DNA from: Amniculibacterium aquaticum
GTDB taxonomy: Bacteria > Bacteroidota > Bacteroidia > Flavobacteriales > Weeksellaceae
Length of the DNA: 36,989 bases
NCBI RefSeq assembly: GCF_003852705.1
Contig: NZ_REFA01000023.1
Span: 1 to 36,989 of the forward strand
Reading direction: 5' to 3'
Below, piece after piece: positions 5,296 through 9,420 of the stretch. The position numbers and the translations under genes were made by a program. Each line of letters opens with the position of its first letter. The first letter of the stretch is position 1. Below the pieces are notes generated by a model. That model saw only the letters and a list, made by a program, of their open reading frames with translations, had not been told where the DNA came from and made no database searches.

Positions 5296-8127
5296 ATGAC
5301 AAAGCCTAGCGACAAACGACTTTACCTAATCGATGCTTATGCCATGATTTTTCGTGGGTATTATGCGCTCATCAGAAACCCAAGACTGACCAGCAAAGGA
5401 TTGGATACATCAGCCATTTTTGGATTTACCAACTCGCTTATTGAACTGATAAAACGAGAAAAACCCACCCATTTGGCAGTGGTTTTTGATGTGGGAAAAG
5501 CTTCTGTACGAACTGAAGATTTCGCCGATTACAAAGCCAACCGTAGTGAGACTCCAGAGGCCATAAAAATTGCAGTTCCCTATATTCATACCATTTTAGA
5601 AGCCATGCATATCCCAATTTTGGGAGTGGAAGGCTACGAAGCCGATGATGTTATTGGGACCATTGCAGGCAAGGCAGAAAAGGAAGGCTATGAAGTTTTT
5701 ATGGTAACTCCGGATAAAGATTTTGCACAGTTGGTTACCCATAATATTAAAATTTACAAACCGGCATCCAAAGGGGGCGACATCGAAATCTTGGGTGTGG
5801 ACGAAGTGAAAGCCAAATACGAAATTGAAGATCCAAAACAAGTGATCGATTTCCTCGCCATGATGGGCGATGCGGTGGACAATATCCCAGGATTGGAAGG
5901 GGTCGGAGAGAAAACGGCTATGAAATTTCTGAAAGAATACGGAAGCATTGAGACTCTTTTGGCCAACACCAATCAACTGAAAGGAAAGTTAAAGGAAAAG
6001 GTAGAAGCATCTGCGGAAAGAGGAATTTTGTCTAAAAAATTAGCCACAATTATTTGCGATGTTCCCATCGATTTTCACCAAGAACAATACGATCTGGATC
6101 AGCCGGACTTTGAAAAAGTTAGAGAAGTCTTTGACGAATTAGAATTCAGAAGACTATTTGAAAATCTATACCGAGCTTTTTCGGTTGAAGGTGATAAGTC
6201 GGTAAATGCTGAAACTGAAACTGAAACTGAAAAGACGACTGCTAAATCATCACCTAAAGCCAACGAATTTGTAGGCGATTTATTCGCAAATTTTGAAGAA
6301 TTGGATGCACAAACCTCAACCAAAACTTCACTTAAAGACGGTCGTGCTTTGTATCAATACATCAATACTGAAAAAGCACAAAAAATAGTGGTACAAAATA
6401 TTCTCACCCAAAAAGCGGTAGCCCTTCATTTTCTCGTTTCAGAACAGGATGAAGAGGATCTTTTGGGCATGAGCTTTTCTTACAAAAAAAATCTATCCTA
6501 TTTTATTCCTTTTTCCAGCATTGCTGAGGATCGAAACGCGACTATCGAACTTTTCAGGCCGGTTTTTGAAAAAGAAGACCTACTGAAAGTGGGGCACAAT
6601 CTGAAAGGCGTTTTTAAAATACTTTTAAATCTAGGGATTGAACTGAAGGGAAATCTTTTCGACACCATGATTGCTCATTATTTGCTCAATCCTGACGGAA
6701 GACACGGGCTGGATTATCTTTCGGAAATTTATTTGAATTATCAATTGCAAACCATCGAGCAAGTCCTTGGTAAAAAAGGGAAAAACCAAAGGTCTTTCCA
6801 AGAGATAGAAATGACCGACACCACCAATTTTACAGCAGAAAATGCGGATGTGGTGTACCAATTGTTCGAAATTTTTGCTCCTCAATTAAAAAAAGAAAAT
6901 CTGGAAAATCTTTTCTACGATATCGAAATGCCACTGATGAAGGTGCTTTCCAAAATGGAAACGGCAGGAATATCTTTGGACACCGACTGGCTCAATAAAG
7001 AAAGTCAGGATTTGGAAAATGATTTGCGAAATCTCGAACAAAAAATATTCGACTTGTCTGAGGAAGAATTCAACATGAACTCTCCGAAACAATTGGGCGA
7101 TATTTTGTTTGAAAAACTAAAACTGGATGCCAAAGCCAAAAAAACAAAGACCGGACAGTATGCTACTTCCGAAGATGTTTTACAAAAATTAGTCTCCAAA
7201 CACGAGATTGTTCCGCTTATTCTGGAATATAGAACTTATCAAAAACTGAAATCGACCTATGTAGATGCTTTGCCTACGCAGATTTCGCCAAAAGATCACA
7301 GGGTACACACCTCGTTTTCCCAAACTACGGCAGCAACCGGAAGATTGGCTTCACTAAATCCGAATTTGCAAAATATTCCGATCCGTACAAAAAGAGGTCA
7401 GCAAATTCGTGGTGCTTTTGTGGCAAAGGAAGGTTACCAACTGATCTCCGCCGATTATTCGCAAATAGAACTTAGGATTATTGCTGAAATTTCCAAGGAA
7501 GATCAATTGATTTCTGCATTTCAAAATGGCGAAGACATCCATGCTTCTACCGCGGCTAAATTGTTTGGTATTCCATTGGAAGAAGTGAGTAGAGACCAAC
7601 GATCTCAAGCCAAATCTGTTAATTTCGGAATCATTTACGGACAAGGAGCTTTTGGATTGGCAGAACAAACCGGACTTTCCAGAACTGAGGCCAAACAAAT
7701 GATCGATGCTTATTTTGAAACCTATCCCAAGCTGAAATCCTACATGTCCAGTCAAGTTGAGAAAGCCAGAACCAATGGCTTTGTCGAAACAATTTTGGGA
7801 AGAAGAAGGCATCTGAAAGACATCAATTCCAATAATTTTGTGGTAAAAGGCCATGCAGAAAGAAATGCGGTGAACGCCCCGATACAAGGTTCTGCAGCGG
7901 ACATCATAAAAATTGCAATGATAAATATCGACCAAAAACTTACAGAGAAAAAGTTAAAAACGAAAATGCTCTTACAGGTTCATGATGAACTTATATTTGA
8001 ATCTCCCAACGACGAATTGGATCTTGTTATCCCTATTATAAAAAAAGAAATGGAATCGGCCATTGAGACCCAAGTCCCTCTTGTTGTAGAAGTTGGAATG
8101 GGAAAAAATTGGCTGGAAGCACACTAA
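5296..8127 (+). CDS. polA: DNA polymerase I, apparently without proofreading residues
   Basis: This 943-residue protein is DNA polymerase I, which fills gaps and removes RNA primers in repair and lagging-strand synthesis. Residues 1 to about 295 are the 5' nuclease (VFDVGKASVRTEDFADYKAN; VTPDKDFAQL; GVGEKTAMKFL). A low-complexity linker (about 307-345, with ETETETE) precedes a 3'-5' exonuclease-like domain (about 346-545). The polymerase domain follows, with motif A DYSQIELRI (D720), the O-helix RSQAKSVNFGIIYGQG and motif C VHDELIFE (D897). By eye alignment to E. coli Klenow, all proofreading ligands are changed: D355/E357 fall in ALHFLVSE (376-383), D424 becomes V439, D501 becomes N516 and Y497 becomes F512. 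The domain is therefore probably structural only, as in Taq. A -7 box ends four bases upstream. The gene appears to be transcribed alone. Confidence 0.96.
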   Translation: MTKPSDKRLYLIDAYAMIFRGYYALIRNPRLTSKGLDTSAIFGFTNSLIELIKREKPTHLAVVFDVGKASVRTEDFADYKANRSETPEAIKIAVPYIHTILEAMHIPILGVEGYEADDVIGTIAGKAEKEGYEVFMVTPDKDFAQLVTHNIKIYKPASKGGDIEILGVDEVKAKYEIEDPKQVIDFLAMMGDAVDNIPGLEGVGEKTAMKFLKEYGSIETLLANTNQLKGKLKEKVEASAERGILSKKLATIICDVPIDFHQEQYDLDQPDFEKVREVFDELEFRRLFENLYRAFSVEGDKSVNAETETETEKTTAKSSPKANEFVGDLFANFEELDAQTSTKTSLKDGRALYQYINTEKAQKIVVQNILTQKAVALHFLVSEQDEEDLLGMSFSYKKNLSYFIPFSSIAEDRNATIELFRPVFEKEDLLKVGHNLKGVFKILLNLGIELKGNLFDTMIAHYLLNPDGRHGLDYLSEIYLNYQLQTIEQVLGKKGKNQRSFQEIEMTDTTNFTAENADVVYQLFEIFAPQLKKENLENLFYDIEMPLMKVLSKMETAGISLDTDWLNKESQDLENDLRNLEQKIFDLSEEEFNMNSPKQLGDILFEKLKLDAKAKKTKTGQYATSEDVLQKLVSKHEIVPLILEYRTYQKLKSTYVDALPTQISPKDHRVHTSFSQTTAATGRLASLNPNLQNIPIRTKRGQQIRGAFVAKEGYQLISADYSQIELRIIAEISKEDQLISAFQNGEDIHASTAAKLFGIPLEEVSRDQRSQAKSVNFGIIYGQGAFGLAEQTGLSRTEAKQMIDAYFETYPKLKSYMSSQVEKARTNGFVETILGRRRHLKDINSNNFVVKGHAERNAVNAPIQGSAADIIKIAMINIDQKLTEKKLKTKMLLQVHDELIFESPNDELDLVIPIIKKEMESAIETQVPLVVEVGMGKNWLEAH
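6211..6232 (+). repeat. polA: Hexanucleotide repeat GAAACT (about 3.7 copies) inside polA
   Basis: Consecutive GAAACT units encode alternating Glu-Thr in the linker between the 5' nuclease and the exonuclease-like domain. The unit length is a multiple of three, so copy-number changes would only lengthen or shorten the linker. Confidence 0.8.
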
Positions 8128-8166: not shown

Positions 8167-8667
8167 ATGAAAGGAAGTTTAATTTTAGCAGGTGCGATTG
8201 CCCTGAGCATGGTGTCTTGCGGAACTACAAAAAATTATAAAATTTTAAGCAAAAGCAAAACGGATACCCAAGGTACGGTAAATTTTATACAAAAAGGAAA
8301 GACGGTAACCATGGACATCAATGCATACAAGCTAACGCCGGGGATCCATGCCATCCATATTCATGAGAAAGGAGATTGCTCGTCACCGGATGCGATGTCT
8401 GCAGGTGGACATTGGAATCCTAAAAGCCACAATCACGGGAAATGGAATCATGGTGAACACCACATGGGGGATATCGGAAATTTGGTTGCAGACAAAGAAG
8501 GGACTGCAAGGTTGATTTTCAAAACGGACAAATGGTGCATTGGCTGTAAGGACGAAACCAAAAATATTATTGGAAAATCGATTATTATCCACGCAAAAGA
8601 AGATGATTTTCATACACAGCCAACAGGAAATGCCGGTGGCAGAGTGGGATGTGTAGAGATCAAGTAA
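8167..8667 (+). CDS. sodC: Cu/Zn superoxide dismutase, lipoprotein
   Basis: This 166-residue envelope enzyme converts superoxide to O2 and H2O2. It has a lipoprotein signal with lipobox cysteine C18 (SMVSC). Copper ligands are H64 and H66 (HAIHIHEKG), the bridging H82 (GGHWNP) and H142 (IIIHAKEDD). Zinc ligands are expected among the His-rich loop at 88-99 and D102. The structural disulfide should be C71-C162. Unusually, an extra CxxC pair (C124, C127 in KWCIGCKDE) sits in the loop before the last copper ligand. Length is typical for bacterial SodC. It follows polA after 39 bases and ends in a strong two-way terminator. Confidence 0.93.
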   Translation: MKGSLILAGAIALSMVSCGTTKNYKILSKSKTDTQGTVNFIQKGKTVTMDINAYKLTPGIHAIHIHEKGDCSSPDAMSAGGHWNPKSHNHGKWNHGEHHMGDIGNLVADKEGTARLIFKTDKWCIGCKDETKNIIGKSIIIHAKEDDFHTQPTGNAGGRVGCVEIK

Positions 8668-8670
8668 TAC

Positions 8671-8707
8671 AATAAAAAATGAGGTCATTGCGACCTCATT
8701 TTTTTAT
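8671..8707. terminator. Two-way terminator between sodC and alkD
   Basis: The stem AAAAATGAGGTC / GACCTCATTTTT with loop ATTGC has A-rich and T-rich flanks on either side, so it can stop transcription from both convergent genes. The alkD stop codon lies at its right edge. Confidence 0.85.
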
Positions 8708-9420
8708 ACTCTTCCTTTTAGATAGTCTTGCCGAAGCGTTTCTTCAAGTTTTTCGATTGCGTATCTAAGGCAAGTTCTAGGCATTTTATGATACTCTCGA
8801 TTCAAGAAGTTGAGCAGTGTGGTTTCATCTTTTTTGCCCATTTCTCTTAGCATCCAACCGTTGGCTTTGTGCATTAAATCGTGTGGATGGTTGAGGTTGT
8901 TCAAAACCAATTCTTGGGTGAGTTCAAAAGAATTTTGCTTCACAAAATACAGAGTTCCTACCACAGCAATTCGTTTTTCCCATAGTTGGTCGGAGTTGGA
9001 TAATGTTCTGAGTATTTTATCTTGTTTGTTTTCAAAACAATAGTTGCCCAAAATTTTATAACAGCTTTGGTCGACCAAATCCCAATTGTTGATGTATCGT
9101 GTATTCTTGAGATAGAAATCGACAATTTCTTTTTTTATATTTAAATCTTTACTTTTTTCAAATTTCTTGACCAAAATAAGCAAGCCTACCAAACGCATTT
9201 CGTGGTATTTGGATTCTAAAAGTTCTTGAACATCTTCTAAAGTTGTTTTGCCCCAAAATGCGTTTACGACAGTCCTGGACTCTGGGACTTTCACACCCAA
9301 GAAAACATCGCCTTCGCCGTATTCGCCTTTTCCAGTTTTGAAAAATCGGGATAGGATCTCGACATTTTCCTTGATGGCAAGATCGTTCAATGCTTCTAAA
9401 ATTTCTTGGCTATTCGTCAT
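8704..9420 (-). CDS. AlkD-like DNA glycosylase (HEAT-repeat DNA alkylation repair)
   Basis: This 238-residue all-helical protein belongs to the AlkC/AlkD superfamily, which excises N3- and N7-alkylated purines without flipping the base. Residues matching those used by Bacillus cereus AlkD are visible: W113 and D117 in NNWDLVDQ (W109/D113), R150 in LWEKRIAVV (R148) and W189 in KANGWMLREMGK (W187). The length fits the family. Its ATG shares one base with the stop codon of hflX (TAATG at 9422-9418), so it is translated with hflX from one mRNA. The 3' end runs into the shared terminator. Confidence 0.9.
   Translation of the reverse strand: MTNSQEILEALNDLAIKENVEILSRFFKTGKGEYGEGDVFLGVKVPESRTVVNAFWGKTTLEDVQELLESKYHEMRLVGLLILVKKFEKSKDLNIKKEIVDFYLKNTRYINNWDLVDQSCYKILGNYCFENKQDKILRTLSNSDQLWEKRIAVVGTLYFVKQNSFELTQELVLNNLNHPHDLMHKANGWMLREMGKKDETTLLNFLNREYHKMPRTCLRYAIEKLEETLRQDYLKGRV

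Follow-up and report, generated by a model that had tools for sequence, protein, structure and literature searches.

Substitution of the proofreading residues of DNA polymerase I in the genus of Amniculibacterium aquaticum, amid mostly intact relatives

The stretch of DNA analysed here, hereafter the window, comprises 36,989 nucleotides of Amniculibacterium aquaticum, whose genome is a 2.55 Mb draft. The open reading frame at 5296–8127 on the forward strand is polA and encodes a full-length DNA polymerase I (Pol I) of 943 aa, which matched the NCBIfam model NF004397 (DNA polymerase I) with 1107.5 bits against a cut-off of 720. It gave the single PolA match across the contigs of this genome, thus ruling out a second, intact PolA. 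The Pfam domains, all on the forward strand, follow the PolA1 order: a 5′–3′ nuclease (FEN-like) domain at 5317–6180, in which both PF02739 and PF01367 are present, a DnaQ-like (RNase H-like) 3′–5′ exonuclease domain at about 6349–6891, and a polymerase domain at 6904–8124. Between the two nuclease domains lies a linker (residues 299–337, 6190–6306), which is probably disordered judging from its low model confidence. Downstream of polA are the genes for a Cu/Zn superoxide dismutase (8167–8664, forward strand) and, on the opposite strand, for a DNA alkylation repair enzyme (8707–9420).

The catalytic residues were mapped by a MAFFT alignment of the window Pol I to E. coli K-12 PolA (L112). All five DEDDy residues of the exonuclease are substituted: D355 and E357 (both within 6427–6435) by H378 (codon 6427–6429) and L380 (6433–6435), D424 by V439 (6610–6612), Y497 by F512 (6829–6831), and D501 by N516 (6841–6843). 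The polymerase Asp pair D705/D882 is retained as D720/D897, and the two 5′ nuclease residues checked, D13/D116, are retained as D13/D118. An earlier note, made by eye, had named the exonuclease residues correctly and had put the exonuclease region at 6340–6860, close to the computed domain. It had also described the flanking sequence as alignable and the polymerase and 5′ nuclease motifs as intact, in agreement with flanks that align well and with the retained aspartates.

The AlphaFold2 model, built from an alignment of 84 sequences, has a mean pLDDT of 88.8 and a pTM of 0.69, with values below 50 in two stretches only (residues 1–4 and 299–337). The strands and helices of the exonuclease domain are predicted confidently, with H378 and L380 in strand 374–381, V439 in helix 436–445, and F512 and N516 in helix 506–533. 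A comparison with the Klenow structure had been proposed in the earlier note, and Klenow is indeed the top structural match of the predicted fold (1kfs_A, Z 46.1, rmsd 2.1 Å over 583 residues); the Bst fragment 4dsj_A also matches the model (Z 39.9). Since the Klenow fold is predicted with confidence, the exonuclease domain is, according to the model, preserved as a folded scaffold next to the polymerase domain. Thus, the window enzyme resembles E. coli Pol I/Klenow in domain order and fold, and differs from it in having H, L, V and N, together with F, in place of DEDDy.

The genus is small and Chryseobacterium-like, and the exonuclease site has been lost in all three of the species examined, although by differing substitutions. 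The five positions read H F D I N in G011 (L082) and K M D Y T in G040 (L113), and loops are shortened in both, by unequal amounts. None of the three species retains D355, E357 or D501; D424 is changed in the window species only and is still present in the other two, and Y497 is changed in two of the three, being still Tyr in G040. Intact relatives are 76–77% identical to the window Pol I. The change of D355, E357 and D501 in every species would place the loss in the ancestor of the genus, and the three different substitution sets point to a shared loss that drifted afterwards. We infer that, most likely, the active site was lost in this ancestor first and that drift followed.

To place the genus among its relatives, 226 PolA proteins (219 distinct) were aligned, the window and E. 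coli proteins plus 224 rows from Bacteroidota, of which 143 belong to the window's family; seven rows are duplicates, leaving 217 distinct relatives. All five DEDDy residues are kept in 213 of the 224 Bacteroidota rows (206 of these 213 being distinct), ten rows are changed, and one (L162), a fragment, lacks the first exonuclease motifs. Besides the two genus members, the changed rows are L123 (genus g7), whose five positions read E L D F N, L137 (g14), L158 (g8), L203 and L204 (both of family f8), and three rows with single changes: D355H in L118 (g26), D424G in L031 (Kaistella yonginensis), and Y497F in L046 (Chryseobacterium salipaludis), whose exonuclease is perhaps still active. Outside this alignment, L266 (g7) and L267 (g52 of f8) are changed as well. 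A deliberately chosen, and hence biased, set of 30 low-scoring genomes contained 25 intact proteins, three changed ones (L274, L292 and L295, all of family f37) and two fragments that are not fully scorable (L298 and L299). Altogether 197 genomes of the family were searched, and PolA residues were read in 85 of them by our own count, plus the named loci, some of which are from the same strains. All 33 genera of the family are represented, g4 by a fragment only; 60 loci were taken from among the better-scoring matches, so that genomes with worse-scoring matches are under-sampled.

The earlier note had also called for mapping the loss on a tree. An 87-row tree was built by a quick method from the 5′ nuclease and polymerase columns only, with L046 scored as changed. 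The three genus rows group together as a clade (SH-aLRT support 100%), and the tree as a whole requires no fewer than six changes of state, a count that does not by itself separate loss from gain. The exonuclease-site losses in Bacteroidota Pol I are apparently several independent events.

Branch lengths were then fitted for each domain on this tree with the five catalytic columns excluded. The ratio of exonuclease to polymerase branch length was 3.76 for the three genus tips together (3.09, 3.52 and 4.69 individually). For 74 intact tips the median is 1.35 and the highest value 2.87, a length filter having excluded two further intact tips with very short polymerase branches (L002, 0.0; L098, 3.37). 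The genus stem (2.6) and the changed row L123 (1.99) lie inside the intact range, and the remaining changed rows gave 3.58 to 9.06. The 5′ nuclease is not accelerated, its ratio to the polymerase being 0.44 in the genus vs. 0.80 in intact tips. The same is seen in pairwise identities: the window protein and the intact L002 share 0.56 of the exonuclease domain, 0.91 of the 5′ nuclease and 0.81 of the polymerase, and the intact pair L002/L094 shares 0.87, 0.88 and 0.88, respectively.

Conserved columns tell a similar story. Identity across 130 intact family rows reaches 98% or more in 47 exonuclease columns. The window protein has changed 12 of these, including all five catalytic ones, vs. 7 of the 42 others (p = 0.0005, a post hoc value obtained with intact rows chosen by those same five columns). 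In all three genus species 31 of the 47 are kept and five are changed, three of these five being D355, E357 and D501 (Fisher p 0.006; this test, too, is post hoc, its rows are related, and its intact rows were selected on the catalytic columns). In the 5′ nuclease, none of the 100 columns conserved in this way is changed in any of the three species; in the polymerase just one is, M723 to L, in two of the three, the other apparent misses being gaps at the contig end of G040. A dN/dS analysis was dropped, as saturated synonymous sites prevent it from separating relaxed from positive selection. These column counts and domain-specific rates point to relaxed constraint in the exonuclease domain only, the catalytic site being gone and much of the scaffold retained. 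Taken together, sequence, distribution and rates strongly support a loss of the proofreading residues.

The linker contains a further feature. A Q-x-x-L-F form is the consensus for binding the beta clamp, and Q-x-[DS]-L-F is present in the linker between the 5′ nuclease and the exonuclease in 50 of 56 distinct linkers outside the window's family but within its class, which we take to be Bacteroidia, and in 99 of 127 distinct linkers within the family; the corresponding shuffle means are 0.09 and 0.34. The other classes of the phylum have it in just 6 of 25 distinct linkers. Over the whole proteins of the set, 169 occurrences fall in the linker and one elsewhere. Examples of linkers with the clamp-like motif are L003, L021, L061 and L062. 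At this place the window genus reads VGDLF (residues 326–330, 6271–6285, forward strand), a degenerate form of the QxxLF of its relatives. L002 and its identical copy L083 share VGDLF with the genus, yet the tree groups L002 with L098 (QLDLF), so that convergence, recombination or a regained motif may be involved. A tie between the loss of this motif and that of the exonuclease site was considered and rejected: the exonuclease-changed L031, L046, L118 and L123 keep QLDLF, L158 has QTNLF, L203 and L204 have QLSMF, only the genus and L137 lack the motif among the changed rows, and L002 combines VGDLF with an intact exonuclease. Should the putative motif bind, it would be a clamp tether for the Pol I of a whole class.

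The other repair and replication functions of the genome were also surveyed. In all three genus genomes, the replicative DnaE (a frame of 1566 aa) carries a fused N-terminal DnaQ domain showing the DEDDh letters when read by eye, in G040 on a contig-truncated frame. An active PHP motif reads DHGN; the PHP part of DnaE reads DLGN instead in the genus and a sister (L260 of the window genome G000, L264, L265 and L268), and may thus be inactive. For PF00929, every one of the three genus genomes gave four matches; among ten genomes outside the genus, eight gave four, G007 two and G020 five, so that a gain of nucleases of this family was ruled out. The four frames of the window genome and of G011 correspond by length to the G095 frames; the 410-aa frame was not seen in G040, which has one of 167 aa instead. 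The earlier note had made its expectation of an error-prone enzyme conditional ("unless another nuclease helps"); within PF00929 no extra nuclease appears, the window genome having four matches as have 10 of the 12 other genomes. A loss of MutS was ruled out as well: each of the 15 genomes searched has PF00488 matches of MutS and MutS2 length, presumably these two proteins. The Y-family (PF00817) has one match in the window genome vs. two each in G011, G040 and G095.

Pol I without an active exonuclease has well-known counterparts. The Bst and Taq enzymes carry a vestigial 3′–5′ domain devoid of editing residues, and their hosts belong to other phyla. The window enzyme is like them in having a scaffold domain without editing residues, and unlike them in that most sampled members of its own clade have retained the site. 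H. pylori Pol I (HP1470), as described in PMC3121766, lacks D355, D424 and D501 in an exonuclease fold thought to be kept, shows no 3′–5′ exonuclease, has active 5′ nuclease and polymerase functions, extends most of the mismatched primers tried, and is credited with intrinsic fidelity on undamaged DNA. The window Pol I shares this architecture, but it is known from its sequence, whereas the H. pylori enzyme was tested in vitro, and the window genome has a Y-family match, whereas H. pylori is described there as having no translesion polymerases. A survey puts about half of bacterial PolA1 as exonuclease-inactive, with inactivation largely phylum-specific; it also describes the actinobacterial PolA2 (APEX), which lacks the 5′ nuclease and has QxxLF, given as its clamp motif, in a vestigial exonuclease domain (PMC12926913). 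The window protein also has an exonuclease domain that appears inactive, but it possesses a 5′ nuclease, and its linker has only VGDLF. Within Bacteroidota, Cardinium endosymbionts have undergone independent polA deletions reaching the proofreading and polymerase domains (PMC12842512). There, too, Pol I proofreading was lost independently, but by deletion of gene parts in reduced genomes, in contrast to point changes in a full-length gene of a 2.55 Mb genome. With these precedents (H. pylori, Cardinium, about half of PolA1), the exonuclease-inactive Pol I belongs to a known kind. Our literature search on lineage-level loss in Bacteroidota found the Cardinium paper (PMC12842512) and none on Weeksellaceae; what is new in detail is that the site was lost through substitutions at the level of a genus, and more than once in a clade that is mostly intact otherwise.

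How the loss arose may be read in several ways. A sequencing, assembly or alignment error, which a draft of 74 contigs might invite, is scarcely credible, because three separate species assemblies agree on the loss in open frames with well-aligned flanks. It is also very improbable, judging from the alignment and the predicted secondary structure, that other acidic residues rebuild the metal site of a still working exonuclease. The acidic run SEQDEED after strand 1 would be the candidate, but it sits in the loop after predicted strand 374–381, where intact relatives are also acidic, and it differs in G011 and G040; moreover, no acid aligns with V439 or N516.

Selection for the loss is less improbable than these, though still unlikely: an editing-free Pol I would extend mismatches and bypass lesions better, thereby serving mutagenic repair. 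Mismatch extension by H. pylori Pol I (PMC3121766) is in line with this, recurrence on the tree could reflect selection, and Y-family matches are few in three exonuclease-lost genomes (one in the window genome, one in G014, none in the 83% complete G007). However, the exonuclease-lost G011, G040 and G036 keep two such matches and G006 three, the intact G022 has one, the 5′ nuclease is not accelerated, and the polymerase has only its M723 change. Still more doubtful is a wider version, in which Bacteroidia Pol I would be tethered to the clamp through the linker QxxLF and the genus, having lost the motif Gln together with the exonuclease site, would possess an untethered, non-editing gap-filler selected for mismatch extension or lesion bypass. 

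Very probably, the window encodes a Pol I with a non-editing exonuclease scaffold, whose active site was most likely lost in the genus ancestor, a loss most likely tolerated through relaxed constraint. Tolerance is suggested by the recurrence in sister lineages and by the DnaE-fused DnaQ and MutS that remain.

Under such a tolerated, probably neutral loss, the exonuclease of the window Pol I would be unable to bind the two catalytic metals, so that Pol I would perform no editing. Gap filling and primer removal would continue via the polymerase and the 5′ nuclease. A mispaired 3′ end would not be excised by Pol I but either extended or passed to DnaE–DnaQ, and the remaining mismatches would presumably be corrected later by MutS-dependent mismatch repair. 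By analogy, this polymerase is expected to act much as its H. pylori, Bst or Taq counterpart does, and the error-prone behaviour like that of Taq, expected in the earlier note, may apply to it. The loss has been caught here at the level of a genus, beside intact relatives, and again in neighbouring genera, thus providing matched pairs in which the value of Pol I proofreading to a cell can be examined.
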